64,000 nt of DNA from Asaia bogorensis (GTDB lineage Bacteria; Pseudomonadota; Alphaproteobacteria; Acetobacterales; Acetobacteraceae), in NCBI RefSeq assembly GCF_900465345.1, contig NZ_UEGO01000033.1, positions 1-64,000 on the forward strand, given 5' to 3'. The notes below the pieces were generated by a model. It did not search any database, was not told where the DNA came from, and worked only from the letters and a program-made list of their open reading frames with translations. This document shows, in pieces, positions 27,083 through 58,677 of this stretch; the first letter of the stretch is position 1; each line of letters opens with the position of its first letter. The translations under genes and the position numbers were made by a program.

Positions 27083-27233
27083 GACAAAAAAGGCGGCCCG
27101 TCAAGGCCACCCCCCGATAAGACGAAAGATGAAAGGAATACGGTCTATTTAGGCCAAGATGGCCGTTGATGCAAGACTCGCGGAAGGAAACGGACGAGTC
27201 ACGAACGTTACATACGCTTACATTATTGGACTA

Positions 27234-27277
27234 CCGTAACGGTTGCGAGGGAATGACGGGCCCTGCCATCGTTACGG
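27234..27277 (+). promoter_or_regulatory. Inverted repeat immediately before the membrane AAA+ operon
   Basis: CCGTAACG (27234-27241) and CGTTACGG (27270-27277) are perfect inverted copies 28 bp apart; the right arm ends three bases before the ATG at 27281. It could be an operator for a dimeric repressor or a 5' mRNA stem covering the ribosome-binding region. Only the symmetry is seen; function is inferred from position. Confidence 0.45.
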
Positions 27278-27280
27278 GAC

Positions 27281-27919
27281 ATGAGCAATGAAGAGCATCC
27301 CGCCCCGCAATTGATGGAAATGCGCCCTGATGATGCTGCGCATAAGGGACGAGGAATCTCGCGCCTTGGCGGTTGCATTATTGTCGCTGCGCTCGCTCTG
27401 TCAGGCCTTGCGGTGGTGCATCAGTTCGGTGCTGACCCTTCCCATTCTGGTCACTCGGGCACGAACCAGACGACTGCCGAATCTGCAGCGGCGCCCACTG
27501 GAACACAAACCCCTGCTACGGCGTCGCATATGGGGGCCGACCTGCCCATGATTCCAGAAGGCCGAGCGGCGCTCGCACTGGCCCATTCGAACTACAGTGC
27601 CCAGGATCAGGCGCGTATTCTTGCAGCTTACAAGAGACGGGACATTTCGCTCGTTCAGATGCCTATCGCTGAAATCGACGGCAAGGCAGGAACAAGTGTC
27701 AGGATCGACACGGGAGGGTTCTCCCAGATCGTCACTCTGAGCCCTGCGCTCAAGGCCGTCACCATTCCGATTTACCATGCCGGCGAAGTGACGATTTCAC
27801 CCATCCATATGCTTGCGGGCAACACGCTTGCCGCCAGCGTGTTGACTGTCTACGGGATGTATAACCTCCCCACACTGAGCTCCTCGGAGCTGGTTACCCT
27901 GGACGTCATCGCGCAATGA
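27281..27919 (+). CDS. Single-pass membrane protein, first gene of the AAA+ operon, function unknown
   Basis: A 212-residue protein I do not recognise. Residues 1-28 are polar and cytoplasmic, about 29-47 form one transmembrane helix (GGCIIVAALALSGLAVV), 50-85 are a Ser/Thr/Ala/Gly-rich linker, and 86-212 form a compact, probably periplasmic domain (SLVQMPIAEIDGKAG, FSQIVTLSPALKAVTIPIYH) rich in predicted beta strands. The stop overlaps the ATG of the AAA+ ATPase (ATGA), which implies stoichiometric coupling with it. An inverted repeat sits just before the start codon. Confidence 0.75.
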   Translation: MSNEEHPAPQLMEMRPDDAAHKGRGISRLGGCIIVAALALSGLAVVHQFGADPSHSGHSGTNQTTAESAAAPTGTQTPATASHMGADLPMIPEGRAALALAHSNYSAQDQARILAAYKRRDISLVQMPIAEIDGKAGTSVRIDTGGFSQIVTLSPALKAVTIPIYHAGEVTISPIHMLAGNTLAASVLTVYGMYNLPTLSSSELVTLDVIAQ

Positions 27920-29184
27920 AAGCCCTGCTTCCTGCCCTGAACCGTCTCATGCCTGTCATGATGGTTATCTTCCTGCTTCTGGCGAGCATTCAGGCTGCCG
28001 TAGCCCTGCATCTCTCAGGGGGTATGTTCGTGCGCTTTTTCTCCTGGGCGCGCGAGGCCTACCTTCCTCTGGCCGGGATTTCGGCGATCGCGGTACTGAG
28101 CGGCCTTCTCTTTGAAACACATTCCGAAAAGCTGATCCGAAAAGGCCTTCGCAGAAGGAGAGGTATTCTTATGGACTCACTGGCGAGACTGACCAACCGC
28201 GACATGCTTGAAGCCCTCATGGCGCAGGAACAGCGCGAGACAACGATTGACGCCGAGGAGCTTGCCGCAGCGCTGCGCGCCCGTGTTATCGGACAAGACC
28301 AGGTTTGCGAGGATATTGCCCAGCAGCTTCGCCGGCGCCTTGCCCTGCATGTGCGCAACAAACCGGTCGGTATCTTCCTGATGGCCGGCCCTCCCGGAAC
28401 AGGCAAGACCTATCTTGCCAAGCAGATCGCGCGCCAGATGGAGCGCCCCCTACTGCATTTTGACATGACCCAGATGTCCAGCCCCCATGCAGCCACGCAG
28501 CTGTTTGGCTCCCCGAAGGGCTATGTCGGGTCAGACAGCTTCGGCAAACTCACCGGGGGGTTGCAGGAAAAACCCGATGCGGTCGTGCTGCTCGATGAAA
28601 TCGAGAAAGCCCATCCGGACGTCTTCAAGAAGTTTCTCACTGCCTGGAATGATGGTCATGTGACCGAGGCCTCCACAGGGGCACAGATCTCGACAACGCG
28701 TGCGATCTTCATGCTGACGTCGAACATTGCGACTGAAGAGCTCACGGAGATCGCTGACAGGTTGCATGACGACGCCGAGCGGATGCGTGCCGAGTCCACC
28801 GAAGCCCTGCGCAAGGCCGGCTTTGCCCCCGAGGTTCTCAATCGCCTCGACCGCATATTCGTCTTCCGTCGTCTCCACGGCCTCGATCTGGCCCGTGTCG
28901 CGGCTCTCGAAATCGAGGCCATGATCAAGGGATACGGCCTTAACGTGGAAGCGGGCGGCATCGACGCCCATCTTCTGTTCCAGTTGCTTCAAAGGCAGCA
29001 GAAGCTCGGAACGGGTGCCTCGGCACGTGATCTTGTCAGATCGATTGAGGATATGGTTAGTGAAAGTCTCATCCTCGCCCGTCAGAACGGCGCCAAGCTT
29101 GTGCGTCTGGTCATGACAGATAACGGCGTGGTGGCTGAAATCGCTGAAGAGAAACAAGCCCTCAATGCCCGTCTTACGCCTTGA
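27916..29184 (+). CDS. Membrane-anchored ClpA/B-type AAA+ ATPase with a single AAA-2 domain
   Basis: A 422-residue ATPase. Two hydrophobic helices (about 11-31 and 50-66) anchor it, followed by a basic stretch (KLIRKGLRRRRG) expected on the cytoplasmic side. One AAA-2 domain resembles the second ring of ClpA/ClpB: VIGQDQV, Walker A GPPGTGKT (158-165), pore loop KGYVG (201-205), Walker B VVLLDEIE (223-230, D227/E228), sensor 1 in MLTSN (N270), an arginine-finger region in APEVLNRLDRIF, and a C-terminal small D2 domain. The Clp N-domain, first ATPase ring, middle domain and ClpP-docking loop are absent. It is probably a membrane-tethered unfoldase or remodeller. It is flanked by two single-pass proteins with large predicted periplasmic domains. 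Confidence 0.85.
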   Translation: MKALLPALNRLMPVMMVIFLLLASIQAAVALHLSGGMFVRFFSWAREAYLPLAGISAIAVLSGLLFETHSEKLIRKGLRRRRGILMDSLARLTNRDMLEALMAQEQRETTIDAEELAAALRARVIGQDQVCEDIAQQLRRRLALHVRNKPVGIFLMAGPPGTGKTYLAKQIARQMERPLLHFDMTQMSSPHAATQLFGSPKGYVGSDSFGKLTGGLQEKPDAVVLLDEIEKAHPDVFKKFLTAWNDGHVTEASTGAQISTTRAIFMLTSNIATEELTEIADRLHDDAERMRAESTEALRKAGFAPEVLNRLDRIFVFRRLHGLDLARVAALEIEAMIKGYGLNVEAGGIDAHLLFQLLQRQQKLGTGASARDLVRSIEDMVSESLILARQNGAKLVRLVMTDNGVVAEIAEEKQALNARLTP

Positions 29185-29205
29185 TATCTCTGGTCTGATT
29201 TCCTG

Positions 29206-30171
29206 ATGTCTGCATCGTCGCGCCTGTGGCGCCGTGCCCCTGCGTGGCGCTTTTTTCTCTACACGACATTCCTGTTTCTGGTGCTGGGCCTGATCTTTCC
29301 TACACCGTTCGTCTCGCAACATACCGGGTGGCTGCACGCTCTGACCCGTCACCTGCCCTCTTTTGGCAGCAAGACGCCGTCAGACCCTGATGCCCCCCCT
29401 GGAACAGACGAGACGCGCGGCAACAGCACTGGCAGCGCAGGTCCCGACCTGAACGACCCCGAGCGCTTCGTGACACCTGATATTGCGACGGCCATTACGG
29501 GCGCCATCCCGTTTGGCGGCCATAGCCTGCCTTTGCCTGCCGGGGTGTGGCACCCAGTGCTGAGCGGCCAATACGGGCTGAACGGCATGATGTCGCTCAA
29601 CGTTCTCGTGCGAACCGATCGCGGTATCGTCACAGGGGTCCTGATTGCCAATACGACCAATCAGGAACTGCCACGCGAGATCATCGAGGATGCCTATAAT
29701 CACTGTCACGATGACAGGAACTACCATTCCACCATCCTGGCTGATCATCCTGATGGCAAGACTGAATGTGCTTATCTTACGGCGGCCTATCTGGGGCCAA
29801 GCGGCATCTTATCCACAGATCCACTGATCCAGCTCGCCTTCAAACGCCTGACGACGTTGGGCTTTCCCATGTCGTCCCTGTTCGTTGTTGCGAGCTGGCT
29901 CAACAGTAGCGGCGCCGGTGAGAGCACGAAGGGCTCCACCAACGTAACGCTCCTTCTCTCGCCGACCCGCCCCGGCACAGTGGTTCTGCGGGCCCCGCTC
30001 CCCTATTGGGACAAACGTCTCATCAACCGGGCACCGGACGCGCTCGAATTTGTACGACACGTCGATAGCTGGTTTGCAGAATGGGTCCCAGTCATGCGTC
30101 ATGGCATGACCACTGACTATAGCGGTACAGTTCCTGACGCTGCGCTGGCCAAAGACCCTGCTGCCCCTTAG
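29206..30171 (+). CDS. Single-pass membrane protein, third gene of the AAA+ operon, function unknown
   Basis: A 321-residue protein I do not recognise. One N-terminal transmembrane helix (about 15-35, FFLYTTFLFLVLGLIFP) is followed by a Pro/Asp/Gly-rich linker (50-85) and a predicted periplasmic domain of about 230 residues. That domain holds a His/Cys-rich segment (YNHCHDDRNYHS, then DHPDGKTECAYL) that could bind a metal or form a disulfide. It starts 21 bp after the AAA+ gene and a hairpin follows its stop, so it closes the operon. Confidence 0.7.
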   Translation: MSASSRLWRRAPAWRFFLYTTFLFLVLGLIFPTPFVSQHTGWLHALTRHLPSFGSKTPSDPDAPPGTDETRGNSTGSAGPDLNDPERFVTPDIATAITGAIPFGGHSLPLPAGVWHPVLSGQYGLNGMMSLNVLVRTDRGIVTGVLIANTTNQELPREIIEDAYNHCHDDRNYHSTILADHPDGKTECAYLTAAYLGPSGILSTDPLIQLAFKRLTTLGFPMSSLFVVASWLNSSGAGESTKGSTNVTLLLSPTRPGTVVLRAPLPYWDKRLINRAPDALEFVRHVDSWFAEWVPVMRHGMTTDYSGTVPDAALAKDPAAP

Positions 30172-30696
30172 GCGGGATGGGCGCATGGGCCGGTTTATGA
30201 TGGGCCGAACGGCCGGGAAGCGCGCTCCTGTGGGCGCTTCCCTCCCCTCTGAACGACCCCTGACATCACCATCATGATCGTATGCGTTGGCGGGGCGGAA
30301 GCGGCTTCAGCGAACACTCACTCCGCTCGTTGTACTCAATGCCTCGTACGACTTGATCTGGCGTGATACATGATCGCCATCCCGATGAACCGCACTATCT
30401 CATGAGCGTGAAAGGCCTTCGCGAATAGGTCGAAGGGGAAACGGCCCGTCCTTTTTCGACATGTTCTAGGCACTGGCTGCGTCCCTCCTGCTCGCTCAGC
30501 GTATCGACAGGCTGTGAAGGCAGGCTGGCTCACGCGCTGCAAGCCGCAGCACTTTGCTCACACAGCGCCTGCTGCGTCAGAACATCGTCACCAATATCTT
30601 GCGGCTTCTCGCCATCCTCATGCCCACTGCTCACGATCCTGCTGCGAAGGACGCGCTTGGCTCTGCATCGGACTCAGAAGTTTTGTAACAGACTTC
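30172..30696. other. 525-bp gap between the AAA+ operon and the ABC transporter, no gene recognised
   Basis: The two flanking genes converge here. Apart from the hairpin at 30215-30242, I see no gene. Short open frames on both strands (for example 30336-30542 minus and 30514-30837 plus) have no recognisable motifs. The gap is longer than normal for convergent genes in this window and could be the remains of a decayed gene. Confidence 0.5.
30215..30242 (+). terminator. Hairpin after the AAA+ operon, probable terminator
   Basis: GGGAAGCGC (30215-30223) pairs perfectly with GCGCTTCCC (30234-30242) around a 10-nt loop, 44 bp after the last stop codon. No good T-run follows, so termination may be weak or factor-dependent, or the hairpin may only protect the 3' end. 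Confidence 0.55.
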
Positions 30697-49116: not shown

Positions 49117-49336
49117 TCACGCACCCTTAATCACGCACCGGTAATTCCACCCCGGCGCAACAGCCACCCTATTGGACCGACAACACAGAGGGCGGGGCAG
49201 GAAAACAATGCCGGGATAATAACGCTGCGATCACGTTAGCTCTATCAGGGCTCGCCACATGACTCAGCATATGTTTTTCTTCCTGCCCGCGATTTCTGGC
49301 GAAACCGCCCCGACCATTTTTTCCGGAGACAAGCCC

Positions 49337-50989
49337 ATGACCAGAACGCTGTCTGTTGCGCTCTCGGGGCAGGATCTGCTCAACCATCCCTTCCTCAACA
49401 AGGGCCTCGCCTTTTCCAGCGAGGAGCGTGACGCTTTCGAGCTGCATGGCCTCCTGCCCAAAGCCGTCCAGACGCTGGACCAGCAGGTTGAGGCGGCGCT
49501 GAAATTCCTCGATGCCCTGCCCTCGCCTTTTGCACGCCATGTGCATCTGCGCGAATTGCAGGATACGAACGAAACGCTGTTCTACGCGCTGCTGACCCGC
49601 AAGATCGATGCCATGCTGCCGCTGGTCTATACCCCCACCGTAGGTGAAGCCTGTCAGCGTTTCTCCGAGATCTGGCGTCGTCCGCGCGGCCTGTTCCTGA
49701 GCTACCCCGAGCGCGAGTCGATGGAAGATATCCTCGACAACCCGGCCTATGACGATGTGCGTGTGATTGTCGTCACAGACGGTGAGCGTATCCTTGGCCT
49801 GGGCGATCAGGGCGCAGGCGGCATGGGTATCCCCATTGGCAAGCTGTCGCTCTACACCACCTGCGCGGGTATCTCGCCTGACCAGACTCTGCCGATCGTG
49901 CTCGATACCGGCACCAATAATCAGGATCTGCTGCAGAACCCGGCCTATATCGGCTGGCGTCACGAGCGCGTACGCGGCGCAGAATATGACGCCTTCATCG
50001 AGCGTTTCGTGACCGCCGTGCAGACACGCTGGCCCCATGTGGCCCTGCACTGGGAAGATTTCAGCGGCGCCAATGCGGCCCCCATTCTTGAGCGCTATCG
50101 CGACCGGCTCTGCACCTTCAATGATGACATCCAGGGCACGGCGGCCGTCACCACTGCCGCCATTCTAAGCGCCAATGCGGCCCATGACGGCAAGCTCAAG
50201 GACGAGACCATCGTCATGCTGGGCGCGGGCTCGGCGGGTGTGGGCATTGCCAAGCTGCTGCTTCAGGTCATGCTCGACGAGGGCGCGAGCGAGGAAAACG
50301 CGCTGGCCCGCTTCTACATGCTCGATCAGGACGGGCTGTTGCTGGACGGGCGCGAAGGGCTGACCGACGGTCAGGCGCTTTTTGCCCGCAAGGACTGGAA
50401 AGACCGCCCCACCGATTTCGAAAGTGTCATGCGCGAGTGCAAGGCCAGCATCCTGATTGGCGTGTCCGGCGTGAAGGGGCTGTTTACCGAGACCATCGTG
50501 CGCGAGATGAGCAAGACCTGCAAACGCCCGATCATCTTCCCCCTATCCAACCCGACCTCCCATTCCGAAGCGACCCCCGAGGACATCATGGCCTGGTCGG
50601 ATGAGCGCGCACTGGTCAGCACGGGCAGCCCCTTTCCGCCGCTCGACCTGCATGGCCGCACCCATCGCGTGGACCAGACCAACAACGCCTATATCTTCCC
50701 CGGTCTCGGGCTCTGCCTGCTGGCCACCGGCGCGACCCGCGTGACGGATTCCATGTTCATGGCCGCAGCCCGCGGGCTTGCTTCGCTTTCACCGCTGCGC
50801 AGCAACCCCGATGGCAATCTGCTGCCGCCCGTCACGCAGCTGCGCAAGGTGGCTCTGGCCGTGGCCGAAGCCGCCGCCCGTCAGGCGCGTGAAGATGGCG
50901 TTTGCCCCTCTTTCAGCGATGACGAATTGCTTGAACGCATCCAGTCTCTGGTCTGGACGCCCGAATATTGTGCTTATGAGAAGATCTGA
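49337..50989 (+). CDS. maeA: NAD-dependent malic enzyme
   Basis: A 550-residue enzyme oxidatively decarboxylating malate to pyruvate. The SfcA-type opening [28 protein letters not shown] is followed by [12 protein letters not shown] with the catalytic Tyr, [27 protein letters not shown], the metal and substrate site [12 protein letters not shown], and the NAD fold [14 protein letters not shown]. The start at 49337 ([10 protein letters not shown]) has GGAG 9 bases upstream; a frame opening at 49259 adds 26 unlikely residues. fumC follows 1 bp later, making a malate/fumarate unit. Confidence 0.95.
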
Positions 50990-50990
50990 C

Positions 50991-52394
50991 ATGACCGATA
51001 CACGCATTGAAAGCGACGGCCTCGGCGAAATCGAAATCCAGGCCGACAAGCTCTGGGGGGCGCAAACGCAGCGCTCGCTTCATTATTTCAGCATCGGCCG
51101 CGAGTTGATGCCGCGCGAGATGATCGAGGCCTATGCCATCGTCAAGCGCGCCTGTGCGAGCGCCAACCATCAGAGCGGCCGTCTGGGTGAGACGCAGTAC
51201 AATCTGATCACCACAGTCTGCGATGAAATCCTGACCGGTCAGCACGCCGACATGTTCCCGCTTCATGTCTGGATGACCGGCTCTGGCACCCAGTTCAACA
51301 TGAACATCAACGAGGTCATCTCGAACCGCGCCTGCCAGCTTTCCGGCGAGGCTCTGGGCAGCAAGCGCCCGGTTCATCCCAATGACCACGTCAACATGTC
51401 GCAGTCCTCCAACGACAACTTCCCCACCGCCATGCATGTGGCCGTCGTGCTGGGCAGCCGTCGCAGGTTGATCCCGGCCCTGACCCGTCTGGCGGAATCC
51501 ATCGAGGCCAAGGCCGAGGAATGGAAGGACATCGTCAAGATTGGCCGCACCCATATGCAGGATGCCGTGCCGGTCACGCTGGGTCAGGAATTCCACGGCT
51601 ATGCCGGAATGTTGCGCGAGAACATCGCCCGCCTTCAGGAAGCCGAAAAGGGTCTCTACCCCCTCGCCCTTGGCGGCACAGCACTTGGCACCGGCATCAA
51701 CACCGATGCCCCCTTTGCCGGTCGTGCCTGCGCCGAAATTGCCCGCCTGAGCGATGCCGCCTTTATCAGCGGCGAAAACAAATTCGCCCTGCAAGGCGCG
51801 CATGATGCACTCGTGCATTTCTCTGGCGCGCTGCGCACCACGGCAGGCGCGCTTTATAAAATCGCGAACGATATCCGCCTGCTCTCCTGCGGCCCGCGCG
51901 CCGGTTTTGCCGAGCTGCATCTGCCCGAGAACGAGCCCGGCTCGTCCATCATGCCCGGCAAGGTTAACCCGACCCAGGTCGAAGCGCTGGCCATGCTGGC
52001 CGTGCAGGTGATGGCCAATGACGTGGCGGTTGGGTTCGGTGGCGCCGGTGGCCTGCTGGAAATGAACGTCTATAAGCCACTCATCATCCAGAACATCATG
52101 CAGAGCATCACCCTGCTGCATGACGGCAGCGAGAATTTCCGCACCTTCCTGATTGAAGGCACCAAGCCGAATCTCGCCCGCATTGAGCGCTATGTGGCGG
52201 AGTCCGTCATGCTGGTGACGGCCCTCGCCCCCACCATCGGCTACGACACGGCCTCAAAAGTCGCGCATCACGCCATGGACCATGATTGCACGCTGAAAGA
52301 GGCTGCCCTGGCCCTAAACGCCGTCAGCGAAGCCGATTTCGACCGACTGGTTGACCCGCGCACCATGCTGGCACCGAATTTAAAGGGAAAGTAA
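50991..52394 (+). CDS. fumC: Class II fumarate hydratase
   Basis: A 467-residue homotetrameric enzyme interconverting fumarate and malate. It has [63 protein letters not shown] and the superfamily signature [13 protein letters not shown] with the catalytic serine. The start [16 protein letters not shown] lies 1 bp after the malic enzyme stop, so the two are coupled in one operon. Confidence 0.97.
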
Positions 52395-52690
52395 AGGAAA
52401 GCGGGGCTCTGCCCCGCCCCCCGGAAAGGGGCAGAAGCCCCTTTCATCCCGATAAATGCAGTATATCGTTGCATCCGCTTGGGGGAAAGCATCCCCTCCG
52501 CCTTGGACCAGGCGGGCGTTCTTATCATGTTGTGGCAATTATTTAGAAGAACCCCTCAACGGAAATCTCAGATCACTCGAGAGCAGATTCCGTTCGAACG
52601 CATGAATTCAACCAAGTGAAAATGATCTATAACGGTCTCTATTCGAAGAATCAGACGAAATGCTTTCTCCATATTTTATTCGATCTCTCA
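52395..52690. other. Gap between fumC and the SIR2-STAND gene, changing from repeat to low-GC DNA
   Basis: The first 50 bp hold the double hairpin repeat that probably ends the fumC transcript. A second GC-rich inverted patch (GGGGGAAAGCATCCCC) lies at about 52490. From about 52520 the sequence turns visibly AT-richer and carries nothing recognisable up to the stop codon of the minus-strand SIR2-STAND gene. Confidence 0.5.
52401..52444. repeat. Dispersed GC-rich double-hairpin repeat, left copy
   Basis: Two perfect stems in tandem: GCGGGGC/GCCCCGC (52401-52417, 3-nt loop) and AAAGGGGC/GCCCCTTT (52425-52444, 4-nt loop), starting 7 bp after the fumC stop. Read in this orientation it resembles the reverse complement of the copy at 55484-55539. 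Probably a terminator or REP-like element. Confidence 0.65.
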
Positions 52691-55138
52691 CTATTGTATG
52701 ACAGCCTTATTAATCGCCGATTGAGCCCTGCCCTTTTGATATCCGGGTAGCAGCACGCCAATTCGCTCACGGCCATAGTTCACGAGTGGCTCTAACCAGC
52801 TTTTGATCTGGATTTTATGCCCACTGTCTAAGCGGACACTTACCAGATTATACGTTCGCACGATCTCTGCTAGAGTTTCAAAAGGATAGTGCTGCGGGTC
52901 GTTTTGGCGCAGAACCTTATCATTAAGAAGAATTGCTTCTCTGAAATCTCTAAACAGGTCGGCTGTTGCACGAGTGGTTTGTGCCGCTCGCATCATTAGG
53001 AATTTTGCGCGCCGGTCGTTGAGTTGACGACGGTCGTAAGTCCCCTTGGTGCGGCGCTCGATTTCAGAGGCTTCCGTATATCCCTGGTTGAGAAACTTTT
53101 CTGCGTCATTAAAGGAGCCGACCTCGCATTTGGCCATGTGCCACTGAAGCCAGAAAAGTGGCCTTCGTCGGATTTGCAATTTTTGCTTGTTATGTTCGAA
53201 GAAATTTTCAATCGCATCGCTATCAGCGACGACCTTAGAAAGAATAGAAAAACGCATCAGTTGCTCGAACATACGCTGCTCGAAATGATTTCGGTTGACT
53301 GAGGCAAGATTTTTAAGAACAAATACTATGGTGTCAACTATTTCTTTGTCGTCGAACAGATTCTGAAGAATATTCTGAGCCCCGATTGAGGGTATGGTTT
53401 CTACAATTCCGGCGTTTCGGCGGAGAAGGCGAAAAGCGCCATCACCGGCCCTCACATTTATCCTGTCAATCAGCGCGCCATAGTCTATTTCCATCATGTT
53501 AGACAGAAAAGTGAGCGGTACATTTTCCCCAATATTAGTTATATACAGCGCAGCAATAACCGCATCTCGTTCATCTTTATTGAGAGATAGCTTACTGAAC
53601 TCCTCCCGATAACGTCCAGCAACGTAATCCGAGCGAAGTAACTTCAAAAGAAAATGCGGTAGGCTTGCCTGACATGTATCGTTAATGAAACGAAGCCGTG
53701 CATCTTGATCAAGCTTATGAAAATCACGCCATCCAGCGATTTGATCGACCAGTTCGCTCAGATCACGCGCTTCACCCTGAGAGAGTGTGGCCAGAGTAAT
53801 TTTTTGAAAACTCCGGAAATTGAGGAGAGACCTGAGGCTATCAGAGCTAGCATCTAGCGCAACTGCCCGGCTTGTTAATATCAGAACGCCGCCCTGGCCA
53901 TCAAACTGACGTGCGATGCTCACGAGCCGTTCCCTCGGCAGATCAAAGCAGTTCTCAATGATCAGTGCGGCGTTCGGTACATAGCTCAGAATTTCTGCAA
54001 CTTCGTTAAGTATATTCTCATAAGCCTGCCGCAGTAAGTAGACAGGCCTCGCGCCCGAGAGGTGATAAGCAACATCGGTTGTAACTATAGATTTGCCATC
54101 ACAAGCGTAACCATCATAGAGTATGATGCGGATATCACCTGCGATTGCGTCAAGCGTATGTTGGACGGCGCTGCGTTGTATGTGGTACTCTGATACATCG
54201 TTGGAGGCGTCCCGCGCAAGTTGTGACGGCTCGATCTTACCATAGAGAAACAAGTCCTCGATCTCTGCTTGTGTAGGAACCGTTGTGGCGGGATTCGGCG
54301 GTGTATACTTCACGAAGCTGGCAAGGTGTGGCTCTCTCGGTGCTTCCTTGGCTAAAAGCTGCTTGATGATGGTGGCAAACCCGCTCCTCCCAATGAAGAG
54401 TGGGGTGCCAAGCCGCATTTGAGCTGCTGCAATATCAGGGTCGGCGTTGGCGGTCGGGCGATTGATGAAAAAGGCTTTGGCGCGTAAACCCGTCAGATCG
54501 TTGATCGCCTGGTTGAGGTGGAAATCGCCAGCATTGAACCCGACAAAAACCACTATTTGGGCTTGGTCGATGTCACGTCGGAAGCGTTCAAGCCAGCTCT
54601 TTACATGGGTGAGCTTCGAGTAACTTTCGGCACCAAGTACGCAGCTTTCGCGAAAGTTATGTATGTCCCATTTCGACACATAGCCGTGCAGATGGATAAT
54701 CTCGAGATTTGCTGTAGCCGTTTTGGGGTCATCGGTGTTGTTGAGGGAATCGACCTGTCTGCGTGCAGCCTGCGCCGCAATCTCGAGCGCATTATCGTAA
54801 TTTGTCGTGTAGACGACTTGCCAGGGATAGCGCAACAGATCGGTCATATCGCCGGTCGAGTTCGAAACCGTGAATTGTTCTTTCAGGAGCGTCATCATGC
54901 CATTGTCGGCAATCTTCCCATGAAGTGCATCGGCAGCGTTTTGTAGGTTTTTATATGGGGGGATCTGATTAAGTGCAGTGTTAAAGATGTCTAGTAGTTG
55001 TGCACCCGCGCCGAGCGTTTCATCAGGCTTGAAATTTAGACAATCCGCGGAAAACCCGGCGCCGCAAAACAGAATACCACCTCCCTTGCGAGCTAGGTCC
55101 AGACGCCGCGCCAACTCATCCAACGTATTCCGTTCCAC
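52691..55138 (-). CDS. SIR2-STAND protein, probable antiphage defence (Avs5-like architecture)
   Basis: An 815-residue three-part protein. N-terminal SIR2 domain (about 15-265): GAGFS (26-30), TTNYDNALE (111-119), HLHGY with likely catalytic H151, VGFNAGDFHL (199-208). Central STAND/AP-type NTPase (about 315-560): Walker A GYACDGKS (343-350), an acidic strand AALIIENC as Walker B, and the sensor LILTSR (419-424). The C-terminal 250 residues are helical and repeat-like, the usual ligand-sensing part. SIR2-STAND proteins of the Avs5 type sense phage proteins and destroy NAD+. It stands alone, in clearly lower-GC DNA than both neighbours, so it was probably acquired by transfer. Family placement within SIR2 defence proteins is not certain. 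Confidence 0.82.
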   Translation of the reverse strand: MERNTLDELARRLDLARKGGGILFCGAGFSADCLNFKPDETLGAGAQLLDIFNTALNQIPPYKNLQNAADALHGKIADNGMMTLLKEQFTVSNSTGDMTDLLRYPWQVVYTTNYDNALEIAAQAARRQVDSLNNTDDPKTATANLEIIHLHGYVSKWDIHNFRESCVLGAESYSKLTHVKSWLERFRRDIDQAQIVVFVGFNAGDFHLNQAINDLTGLRAKAFFINRPTANADPDIAAAQMRLGTPLFIGRSGFATIIKQLLAKEAPREPHLASFVKYTPPNPATTVPTQAEIEDLFLYGKIEPSQLARDASNDVSEYHIQRSAVQHTLDAIAGDIRIILYDGYACDGKSIVTTDVAYHLSGARPVYLLRQAYENILNEVAEILSYVPNAALIIENCFDLPRERLVSIARQFDGQGGVLILTSRAVALDASSDSLRSLLNFRSFQKITLATLSQGEARDLSELVDQIAGWRDFHKLDQDARLRFINDTCQASLPHFLLKLLRSDYVAGRYREEFSKLSLNKDERDAVIAALYITNIGENVPLTFLSNMMEIDYGALIDRINVRAGDGAFRLLRRNAGIVETIPSIGAQNILQNLFDDKEIVDTIVFVLKNLASVNRNHFEQRMFEQLMRFSILSKVVADSDAIENFFEHNKQKLQIRRRPLFWLQWHMAKCEVGSFNDAEKFLNQGYTEASEIERRTKGTYDRRQLNDRRAKFLMMRAAQTTRATADLFRDFREAILLNDKVLRQNDPQHYPFETLAEIVRTYNLVSVRLDSGHKIQIKSWLEPLVNYGRERIGVLLPGYQKGRAQSAINKAVIQ

Positions 55139-55604
55139 GAATCGCCACCCCTGAGCTTAATGTTGTTTCCGAAGAACACTACATTTTCTTATCTACACTG
55201 TCTCACAGAAACGTCGGGACACTTTGGGCGAGTTAGTCCAGATGGCTTCAATATGCGTGAGTGGCCCAAGGAAAAGGACCTTATCAGAGGTCGGATCCCA
55301 ACATTTCTGCATGTTAATATCCGTTTTTTTTGCGGCCACACATCCGGAAAATATCTTCATTCTTATTGCGCCACTCGGCAACCAAGAGATTGTGGCGCTT
55401 ATACCTGCTGTCCGGAGAGCTTTACCAAGCAGCTATACCTAAGATGCTGGCTAAAGCTGCCACTCGGGAACCAACACTCCGTAACGGATTTCCAAAGGAT
55501 GACGGCCCTTTGGCGGGCTTCGGGGCAGCGCCCTAATCCTCTCCTCCCCGCATTGCACCCCCTTCCGAGATTGTTATACTGTTCCAAACTCGAAAGGACT
55601 TTGC
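55139..55604. other. 466-bp gap upstream of the SIR2-STAND gene and the S10 peptidase
   Basis: AT-richer DNA to about 55480 continues the island; it should hold the promoter of the SIR2-STAND gene. Overlapping frames here (for example 55160-55687 and 55224-55442, plus strand) show no family motifs and are probably chance. The right repeat copy follows at 55484-55539, then the promoter region of the S10 peptidase. Confidence 0.45.
55484..55539. repeat. Dispersed GC-rich hairpin repeat, right copy, opposite orientation
   Basis: It contains CCAAAGG (55492-55498) pairing with CCTTTGG (55507-55513), then CGGGCTTCGGGGCAGCGCCC. Its reverse complement (beginning GGATTAGGGCGCTGCCCCG) shares order and motifs with the left copy at 52401-52444 (GGGGCTCTGCCCCG, then AAAGGGGC and a final CATCC). 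The two copies bracket the low-GC SIR2-STAND island. Confidence 0.55.
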
Positions 55605-57104
55605 ATGTCGCGCAAGACTCTTGTTGCGGCGTTGCTGGCTTCGGCCTGCTTCGCCCTGCCCCTCCTCCCCGCCGCCCACGCAGCTGAGCCTGCCAAGAGC
55701 GAGGCGCCGAAGGAGGGATTGGCGGCGCTGCTGCCTGCGGATTCCATCACCAAGCATCATCTGACCGCAGGCGGGCAGAGCATTGCCTATACTGCCCATG
55801 CGGGCACGGTCACGCTGCGTGACAAGGAGGGCAAGCCCTCCGCCAAGGTCTTCTACGTGGCCTATACGAAGGACGGGGCGAATGCCCACACGCGCCCGGT
55901 GTCGTTCTTCTTCAATGGCGGCCCCGGCGCAGGCACGGCCTATCTGAATCTCGGTGCGGCTGGCCCGCGCGTGCTGCAGTTCCCGGCGGATCATCCGGAA
56001 GATGGCGCGCGCGCCCATCTGGCCGACAACCCGGATAGCTGGCTGCCCGCCACCGACATGGTGTTCATCGATGCCGTGGGTACGGGTTATTCGCAGCCGA
56101 CCGACCCGAAAAAGGCTGCCGAGCAGTTCTACAGCGTCACCAAGGATGGTGAGGCTTTCGCCAAGGCCATTGCGCTCTGGGTGGGTGAAAACGGGCGTCA
56201 GGCCTCGCCGCATTATCTGGTGGGCGAGAGCTATGGCGGCATCCGCTCGGCACAAGTAGCTGATGCGTTGCAGCAGCAGCAGAACCTCATCGTCAATGGC
56301 ATCGTGATGATCTCGCCCGCTATCCAGATGCAGTTTCTGGACAACACGAACAACCCGATGGCCTCGGCCATGGCGCTGCCGACGTTCATCGCCTCGCATC
56401 TGTCGCAAACCGGCAAGCTGACGCCGCAGGCGGTGGATGAGGCCTATCACTATGCGCTCGGGCCGTATCTGACCACCATCGCCAATGCCCCGCCCAAAGG
56501 CGATGACGCGAAGAAATTCTATACCGATCTAGCCGCCCGCACCGGCCTGCCGGTGGATGTCATTACCAAGGAAATGGGCGAGCCCAACCCGTTTGCGCAT
56601 GACGTGCGCAGCCGCGATGGCCGCCTGTACGGCATTTACGACTTCACCCAGTCGATCCCTGACCCGTATGCCGATGGCATCGAAAACGGCCAGAGCCCGG
56701 AAATGACGCTGTCCGGCTTCGGTCGCGCTTATGGCAATGCCTATAGCGGCTATCTGGCCAATGAGCTCGGCTACAAGACCGACCTCACCTATGATTTGCT
56801 GAGCATGGAAGTGAACGGCGCCTGGAAATTCACCAGCTCCGGCTCACAACTGACCGATCAGGTCGGCATCCTGCGCAAGATGCTGGCGCTCGACCCCAGC
56901 CTGCATATCTTCATCGCCAATGGCTATTTCGACATGGCCTGCCCGTTCGGCACTACGCGCTGGACCAAGGACCACATCCCAGTCGGGGCCGAACGTATCG
57001 CGCTGCATCTCTATGAAGGCGGGCATATGCTCTACACCCGCCCTGCCAGCCGCGCCGCGCTCACGCGTGACGTCTCGGCATTTTATAACGACACGTCCAA
57101 GTAA
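55605..57104 (+). CDS. S10-family serine carboxypeptidase-like protein, exported
   Basis: A 499-residue alpha/beta-hydrolase-fold peptidase with a signal peptide (cleavage near AAHAAEP). S10 landmarks are FFNGGPGAG (102-110), IDAVGTGYSQP (155-165), catalytic Ser209 in GESYGG, the Asp in NGYFDMACPF and the His in GGHMLYTRP. It would remove C-terminal residues from periplasmic peptides. Its neighbours on the left are the repeat and the SIR2-STAND island; it converges with the aldehyde dehydrogenase gene. Confidence 0.92.
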   Translation: MSRKTLVAALLASACFALPLLPAAHAAEPAKSEAPKEGLAALLPADSITKHHLTAGGQSIAYTAHAGTVTLRDKEGKPSAKVFYVAYTKDGANAHTRPVSFFFNGGPGAGTAYLNLGAAGPRVLQFPADHPEDGARAHLADNPDSWLPATDMVFIDAVGTGYSQPTDPKKAAEQFYSVTKDGEAFAKAIALWVGENGRQASPHYLVGESYGGIRSAQVADALQQQQNLIVNGIVMISPAIQMQFLDNTNNPMASAMALPTFIASHLSQTGKLTPQAVDEAYHYALGPYLTTIANAPPKGDDAKKFYTDLAARTGLPVDVITKEMGEPNPFAHDVRSRDGRLYGIYDFTQSIPDPYADGIENGQSPEMTLSGFGRAYGNAYSGYLANELGYKTDLTYDLLSMEVNGAWKFTSSGSQLTDQVGILRKMLALDPSLHIFIANGYFDMACPFGTTRWTKDHIPVGAERIALHLYEGGHMLYTRPASRAALTRDVSAFYNDTSK

Positions 57105-57112
57105 AACGGTCA

Positions 57113-57161
57113 GGCACGGGGTTGATCGCCCCGTGCCACGGAGAGGGGCAACGGCCCTCTC
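57113..57161. terminator. Double hairpin between convergent S10 peptidase and aldehyde dehydrogenase genes
   Basis: GGCACGGGG/CCCCGTGCC (57113-57137, 7-nt loop) and GAGAGGG/CCCTCTC (57141-57161, 7-nt loop) are perfect stems in tandem. Layout and composition resemble the double-hairpin repeat after fumC. Probably a bidirectional terminator of the same repeat type. Confidence 0.6.
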
Positions 57162-57171
57162 CCCTCCCGTC

Positions 57172-58677
57172 TCAGAAGAAACCAAGCTTCGTCTCGCTAT
57201 AGCTCACCAGCAGGTTCTTGGTTTGCTGGTAGTGGTCGAGCAGCATCTTGTGCGTTTCGCGACCAATACCGGATTTCTTGTAGCCACCGAAGGCCGCGTG
57301 GGCGGGATAGGCGTGGTAGCAATTCACCCATACGCGCCCGGCCTGTAGCCCACGCCCCATGCGGTAGCAGGTATTCGCGTCGCGGCTCCATACACCCGCA
57401 CCCAGACCGAACTCAGTGTCATTGGCAATGGCCAGGGCTTCTTCCTCGGTCTTGAAGGTCGTTACTGCCAGAACAGGGCCGAAGATCTCCTCCTGGAAAA
57501 TACGCATCTTGTTATTGCCACGGAACACAGTCGGCTCGATGTAAAAGCCGTCATCCAGCGTTCCGCCAAGTTTTGCCGCCTTGCCGCCCGTCAGAAGCTC
57601 GGCCCCTTCTTCCTTGCCGATAGCGATATAGGACAGGATCTTGTCCTGCTGCATCTGCGAGTTCTGGGCCCCCATCATGGTGGCGGGATCGAGCGGGTCA
57701 CCCTGTTTGATGGCCCGCACGCGCGGCAGCACTTTCTCCATAAAGTGCTCATAGATGGATTCATGCACCAGCGCACGGCTCGGGCAGGAGCAGATCTGCC
57801 CCTGATTGAGCGCGAACATGGCGAAACCCTCAATGGCCTTGTCGAGATAGGAATCATCACGATCCATCACGTCGGCAAAGAAGATATTGGGAGATTTGCC
57901 ACCCAGTTCGAGCGTTGCAGGAATAAGGTTTTCTGCCGCGGCATGAGCGATGGTCTTGCCCACGCCGGTCGAACCCGTGAAGGCCACTTTGGCGATGCGC
58001 GGGCTTTTCGCGAGGTAATCCCCTACATCGCGCCCGCTGCCATTGACGATATTGAGCACGCCCGGCGGAAACAGATCACCGATGATATCCATCACCACCA
58101 GAATACTGGCGGGCGTCGTCTGGGCGGGCTTCATGACCACGCAGTTACCGGCGGCAAGCGCAGGTGCCAGCTTCCATGCGGCCATCAGGATTGGGAAATT
58201 CCAGGGAATGATCTGCGCGACAACACCCAGCGGCTCATGAAAATGATAGGCCACGGTGGTGTCGTTGATCTCGCCCAGACTACCTTCCTGCGCCCGAATG
58301 CACCCGGCAAAATAGCGGAAATGGTCAATCGCCAGCGGAATATCGGCGTTGAGCGTCTCACGCACCGGTTTGCCGTTATCCCAGGTTTCGGCACGGGCAA
58401 TGAGGTCGAGATTGGCCTCCATACGGTCCGCTGCCTTAAGCAGAAGAAGCGCCCGGTCAGCCACCGAGGTCCGGCCCCAGGACTCACGCGCCTGCTCGGC
58501 GGCATCGAGCGCCATATCGATATCAGCAGGGGTGGAATGGGGAACCTGGCACAGCACGCGGCCATCGACTGGCGAGTGATTATCGACATACTGGCCGGAA
58601 ACTGGCTCACGCCACTGTCCGCCGATGAAATTGCCATAGCGTTCGCGAAATGGAGGGGCTGCCTTGTTTCCCGACAT
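57172..58677 (-). CDS. NAD(P)-dependent aldehyde dehydrogenase (AldB/ExaC type)
   Basis: A 501-residue aldehyde dehydrogenase of the group oxidising acetaldehyde and related aldehydes. It has [39 protein letters not shown], the catalytic Glu in [10 protein letters not shown], the nucleophile C296 in [13 protein letters not shown] (CSC rather than CTA), and [10 protein letters not shown]. The C-terminal block [34 protein letters not shown] is typical of AldB. The start at 58677 has AAGG about 8 bases upstream; the longer frame to 58704 is possible. A cytosolic enzyme of this kind would clear aldehydes from ethanol oxidation. Confidence 0.92.

Follow-up and report, generated by a model that had tools for sequence, protein, structure and literature searches.

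A predicted antiphage SIR2-STAND gene of the Avs5 type at a variable site between fumC and an S10 peptidase gene in Asaia bogorensis

Results

The SIR2-STAND gene and its surroundings

An uninterrupted open reading frame on the minus strand at 52691-55138 of the 64-kb window, which is the whole stretch of A. bogorensis DNA that was analyzed, encodes an Avs5-like SIR2-STAND protein of 815 aa from a GTG start. Residue 1 is the invariant start in an 11-member family alignment, and a search of the same genome with the protein returned this single locus. The gene is flanked by fumC (50991-52394, plus strand, start inferred) and by a gene for an S10-type serine peptidase (55605-57104, plus strand), both named by eye from their translations. 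No partner gene beside it was evident in the list of open reading frames for the 64-kb window, and the description of an orphan gene in the original prediction stands. Repeats that would mark a transposon were not found in 52380-55640.

The composition of the gene differs from that of its surroundings. Its GC content is 0.493 and its GC3 is 0.513, compared to a GC content of 0.583-0.621 and a GC3 of 0.689-0.776 for five nearby genes. The GC content calculated in 1-kb windows is 0.46-0.51 across the gene versus 0.53-0.69 away from it.

Domain organization and conserved motifs

The N-terminal region (residues 1-270; 54329-55138, minus strand) is a predicted SIR2-like NADase domain defined by Pfam and motif matches, and its end is approximate. 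Pfam SIR2_2 (PF13289) matches residues 108-217 with E = 9e-15, and the SIR2 motifs GAGFS (26-30), TTNYD (111-115) and His151-Gly152 are invariant in all 11 family members. Residues 271-500 (53639-54328, minus strand) were assigned by Pfam and alignment to a linker plus a STAND-type NTPase with approximate limits. The Walker A sequence is GYACDGKS (343-350), with Gly348-Lys349 invariant in 11/11, and a Walker B-like ALIIE (391-395) contains an LIIE (392-395) that is invariant in 11/11, as is TSR (422-424). "Walker B-like" and "TSR motif" are names given by eye. The nSTAND_NTPase5 match in the 815-aa protein is weak (residues 316-424, E = 0.0022) and falls under the Pfam cut-off, and every one of the 11 family members matches this model at E = 0.1 or better, the best with E = 1.1e-5. 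The nSTAND3 model (PF20720) had no match in the protein at E = 1 and matched four of the 11 members weakly. Among six other SIR2-STAND relatives, nSTAND3 was over the cut-off in two (L063, which is the Escherichia coli plasmid protein WP_206343558.1, and L066), under it in three, and without a match in one.

The C-terminal region (residues 501-815; 52694-53638, minus strand) is a putative helical-repeat phage sensor, assigned by colinear homology that extends to residue 792. No Pfam repeat was matched in this region, and its helical nature is putative. The last ~50 residues are the most variable part: column identity across the 11 members is lowest at 766-815, and the mean drops to 0.54 in residues 766-810.

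Similarity to Avs5 and other SIR2 defense proteins

A search of the PDB with the 815-aa protein gave 12 distinct sequences at E = 1 or better, and only 9jap (869 aa, eight chains) was matched nearly end to end. The match covers residues 7-719 with E = 8e-48. A family-profile search of the PDB (9 distinct sequences) again gave 9jap, at residues 5-731 with E = 3e-57. The PDB names this entry 'SIR2-like domain-containing protein', and we take it to be the Avs5 filament structure published by Wang et al. 2025. 9jap is colinear with the window protein over almost the whole length, and the match of L063 to 9jap is full-length and scores 1846 bits. Profile-profile comparison of the window family with a set of eight SIR2-STAND proteins that includes L063 was colinear across 758 columns (15-792 versus 31-813; probability 100, E = 1.4e-51, identity 21%). 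The continuation of this match to residue 792 means that the homology covers the C-terminal part and not the SIR2 domain alone. The Avs5-like SIR2-STAND architecture that had been proposed for the gene is thus borne out by the SIR2_2 match, the detection of nSTAND_NTPase5 across the family, and the 9jap alignment.

Avs5 is among the closest known systems, with PaAvs5-1 of Pseudomonas aeruginosa as an example. According to PMC12931631, its domains run in the order SIR2, STAND NTPase and C-terminal region; its motifs include GAGxS, TTNxD, Walker A and a Walker B-like motif in which Glu occurs once, and the numbering of its C-terminal deletions goes up to residue 828. PaAvs5-1 depends on its Walker A as well as on the residues of TTNxD and of the HG/NG position, HG and NG are about equally frequent among Avs5 homologues, and nSTAND3 is the NTPase family reported for PaAvs5 (PMC12931631). 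PaAvs5-1, as described there, shares with the window protein the domain order, a length of about 815-830 aa, a single-gene arrangement, GAGxS, TTNxD, Walker A, and a single acidic Walker B-like residue; this likeness is drawn from the published description (PMC12931631). The two differ in that PaAvs5-1 has NG where the window protein has HG, and in that the window protein is unmatched by nSTAND3 and belongs to a mainly alphaproteobacterial lineage. The original prediction considered the C-terminal sensor to be short for Avs5. About 315 residues follow the NTPase, PaAvs5-1 has the same layout in about 828 aa (PMC12931631), and colinearity reaches residue 792, so this claim fails.

The 9jap-like L063 has an NG motif (CLHINGRI), and the first glycine is missing from its P-loop, whereas the window protein has HG. 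The same departure from the window lineage is seen in the 9jap-like proteins L063, L065, L074, L076 and L080 together: NG replaces HG, and there is no exact G4-GK[STN], with GNGK kept.

NCBIfam NF041814, the Avs5 equivalog model with a cut-off over 1000 bits, had no match in the 815-aa protein at E = 1. The model also misses L063 (E limit 0.01) despite the full-length match of this protein to 9jap, and NF041814 therefore looks narrow. Across 398 genomes of the phylum it had four matches at E = 0.001 or better with none over the cut-off, and it matched 0 of 14 control genomes. PADLOC was uninformative as an Avs5 test, because its Avs5 models did not pick up L063 either (E limit 0.01). Judged by sequence, the protein is Avs5-like in the broad sense; the status of an Avs5 equivalog is not claimed for it.

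PADLOC did match the 815-aa protein to LmuA, Dsr2 and ThsA in the SIR2 part only, and DSR2 entries appear among the PDB matches, as would be expected of a DSR2-, Thoeris- or Lamassu-like SIR2 effector controlled by another sensor or a partner instead of a STAND NTPase. We consider such an effector very unlikely since these matches end inside the SIR2 domain by residue 223, the remainder of the protein is colinear with 9jap, Walker A is present, and a partner gene is not evident. DSR2 (8wkt, 8k98 and others), with chains of about 1005 aa, has the SIR2 domain in common with the window protein (about residues 75-223 of the latter) and no match outside it, and the DSR2 model NF041819 scored 22.8 bits against a cut-off of 1400, at residues 6-154 only. 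ThsA consists of SIR2 plus a SLOG domain and works with a ThsB partner; its matches are confined to residues 24-211, and no ThsB-type partner gene was evident in the open reading frame list. Two further kinds of match were weak: iSirtuin (E = 0.11) and chains annotated as deacetylase (E = 0.005-0.03). Defense-type SIR2 proteins gave the best family and structure matches, in support of the defense role proposed at the outset, and placement in a non-defense SIR2 group was not borne out by the HMM search.

A separate, mainly alphaproteobacterial lineage

A scan of genome contigs gave a family consisting of the window protein and 10 full-length relatives that are 67-88% identical. The hosts of the relatives are Acetobacteraceae, Rhizobiales, Roseobacteraceae, Rhodospirillales, one alphaproteobacterial MAG and one Salinicola MAG. 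Maximum-likelihood trees of 32 and 28 rows unite the 11 proteins in a clade with support of 100/99. The neighbor of this clade is a viral-contig locus (L070, 100/100), and the 9jap group lies apart. The 32-row tree had long branches, four of which were dropped for the rebuilt 28-row tree with the same placement; both trees include several rows, among them members of the window clade, whose residue composition deviates. Identity between the window lineage and the 9jap group is about 21-25% (~21-24% for the window protein itself). There were no NF041814 matches over the cut-off, so the trees hold no true equivalog and give no assignment to the four published Avs5 clades. The suggestion of a distinct subgroup is upheld as far as the trees place the protein in a separate lineage; the sensor-length argument offered for it is not, the length being ordinary for Avs5. 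Our reading is that the protein is a predicted NADase of the Avs5 type and that its lineage is distinct and mainly alphaproteobacterial. The lineage is what is new; the kind of defense protein is already known.

The distribution of the family is patchy. With the window protein as query, a match was obtained in 5 of 385 class-level genomes and in 14 of the 299 genomes from the family Acetobacteraceae, and an alignment search gave matches in 10 of 398 genomes of the phylum, with the source genome counted each time. The other class and family matches are 20-30% identical, and many cover the SIR2 part only. Distant relatives, all under 60% identity, were present in 23 plasmid records. Twelve loci were found on viral contigs, one at 38% identity and the others at 23-26%, and no match was found in 50,697 phage records. 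In the open-access literature, no paper linking Avs5 with Acetobacter was found, and only HicAB work was found for acetic acid bacteria and anti-phage defense systems.

Horizontal acquisition as a 2.8-kb cassette

The gene is absent from all eight sister species, two of which are represented by genomes that are 85-88% complete. A 2.8-kb cassette (52622-55461) is common to the window and Gluconacetobacter azotocaptans (85.1% identity), and the corresponding match to Acetobacter fabarum covers 52631-55436 with 84.0% identity. The cassette consists of the gene, about 300-320 bp upstream of it, and 60-70 bp downstream. Beyond the cassette, 50000-58500 is unmatched in the two loci apart from one 45-base piece in G. 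azotocaptans, whose contig reaches just 177 bases past the gene and leaves the second flank outside view. The malic enzyme-fumC DNA (49259-52394) is 96% and 89% identical in two sister species versus short pieces of 65-76%, and one 32-base piece of 91%, in the G. azotocaptans and A. fabarum genomes; these short matches may not be true counterparts. The G. azotocaptans and A. fabarum coding sequences are 95.0% identical to each other. The gene thus appears to be foreign, and horizontal transfer is the simplest account. A low-GC foreign island had been predicted, and both the GC3 difference and the absence from the eight sister species, which means that the gene is not genus-wide with native composition, are in agreement with it.

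Comparison with the G. azotocaptans and A. fabarum copies gave a dN/dS of 0.12-0.13. The gene is under purifying selection, with a dN/dS of about 0.12. The ratio is higher in residues 701-814 (0.31-0.35); because dS is also lower there, the increase does not prove positive selection. An acquired gene that has fallen silent or is decaying, and that now serves no role, would fit the occurrence of the gene in just one of nine genomes of the genus and the lack of a promoter-like site found upstream on its own strand. The uninterrupted frame, the retention of the catalytic motifs and the low dN/dS against two relatives make this account highly improbable.

The neighbors of some relatives are defense- or phage-related. 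A 16-kb stretch of A. fabarum encodes CcdA, CcdB, a D12 methylase, an Eco57I-type methylase, an AAA protein and McrBC. In the alphaproteobacterial MAG, a TIR protein is encoded immediately upstream and a phage terminase at a greater distance, and the Salinicola MAG has a phage integrase and an AbiEi-type protein nearby. The neighbors of two other relatives (L004, L005) look like housekeeping genes by eye. The data comprise ten flanking proteins from three loci chosen by eye and so serve as illustration, not as an enrichment count.

Proposed function

We propose, with a probability of roughly 85%, that the gene encodes an Avs5-type immune receptor that acts against phages as a single protein, and that the gene moves as a cassette. 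The NADase activity, oligomerization, trigger and protection in this proposal are inferred from the analogy to Avs5. The C-terminal region would sense and bind a phage protein, and NTP binding by the STAND NTPase would then lead to oligomerization, probably into filaments like those of Avs5. Brought together in this way, the N-terminal SIR2 domains would hydrolyze NAD+, and infection would stop. According to the FAM118 study PMC12700824, Avs5 assembles its filaments from homodimers and seems to require them in order to be active. The 2.8-kb cassette presumably carries its own promoter. The proposal would extend Avs5-type immunity to a separate, mainly alphaproteobacterial lineage that retains the canonical HG motif and that the NCBI equivalog model does not pick up.

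The fumC-S10 site varies within the genus

The interval between fumC and the S10 peptidase gene varies between species and holds other defense-type cargo in some of them, a feature that the original prediction had not noted. The flanks are conserved in all eight sister species, with 92-95% identity over 51000-52400 (fumC) and 83-96% identity for the S10 peptidase gene. The left border of the variable site is a GC-rich hairpin region after fumC (52396-52450) that is conserved in the sisters; terminator-like matches in it were not in excess over chance (4 versus 3.8). Seven aligned sisters are alike up to the hairpin, and the window diverges at about 52450; this alignment omits G007 because of an N gap. 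The BLAST match of G006 extends some 30 bases past this point, and G004 is split over two contig ends. Nothing in sister genome G002 matches 52451-55487 (3037 bp), the longest unmatched segment of the 64-kb window. Compared with G002, the whole window contains three such stretches of at least 300 bp, grouped in two patches, which places the fumC-S10 site among few variable places in the window.

Abortive-infection-type cargo was found at the site in four of the eight sisters, once as a fragment, and the other four have no clear defense family. G002 carries AbiJ_NTD4 plus DUF7014 (PADLOC PDC-S32, E = 3e-7), G003 carries AIPR (PADLOC AbiU, E = 5e-28), and G008 carries GmrSD_N (PADLOC NsnA, E = 5e-57, and PD-T4-2_A, E = 1e-31) next to a HEPN protein (RiboL-PSP / MAE_28990). 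The G004 cargo is an AbiJ_NTD4 fragment with a broken frame and a match under the cut-off. G007 has a radical SAM protein (426 aa) and a short membrane-like protein of no family (L057, 6169-7993), and the radical SAM protein matched no PADLOC model at E = 0.01. In G001 the site holds a 194-aa protein whose CdiI match falls under the cut-off, and in G005 and G006 it holds proteins without a family match. PADLOC covered five of the ten cargo proteins.

Certain SIR2 proteins, such as short Argonaute-SIR2, act against plasmids, and distant relatives of the window protein occur on plasmids (the 23 records above). A SIR2-STAND role outside phage defense, for example in plasmid exclusion or a stress response and still through NAD+ hydrolysis, would accommodate both points. 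The abortive-infection-type cargo at the site in four of eight sisters and the neighbors of some relatives fit antiphage islands and leave this role improbable, and an antiphage receptor remains the preferred reading.

Core defense hotspots of P. aeruginosa, as presented in the available part of PMC10250203, are likewise core-genome places with differing defense cargo; the fumC-S10 site differs in being short, in holding mostly one or two genes, and in being seen in nine genomes of one genus. A wider, tentative proposal, which we regard as possible and less likely to hold in full than to fail in some part, joins the site and the gene. The fumC-S10 interval would be a core defense hotspot where promoter-bearing cassettes of one or two genes are swapped by recombination in the flanks without an integrase. 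The SIR2-STAND protein would represent an Avs5 clade outside those tested, with its variable last 50 residues reading a different trigger, and the unassigned cargo (the radical-SAM pair and the 294-aa and 175-aa proteins) would be new defense. Such a site would be a compact location, constant in position, at which defense genes of acetic acid bacteria, unannotated ones included, could be harvested and tested.

Other variable features were seen in the genus. The second patch that distinguishes the window from G002 (27181-30631) encodes an AAA protein (Clp-like by eye) and two unknown proteins, with 73% or no match. G002 has an extra 3.9 kb directly after the S10 gene and before an aldehyde dehydrogenase gene (L114), and the genus thus shows variation on either side of S10. 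In G005 and G006 (L058, L059), the 5' part of the S10 gene is duplicated, and a 12-kb insert between fumC and S10 separates this duplicate from the complete gene. By eye, the insert encodes PEP carboxykinase-like, LysR, BCCT transporter and TetR proteins together with aldehyde and choline dehydrogenase-like and porin-like proteins.
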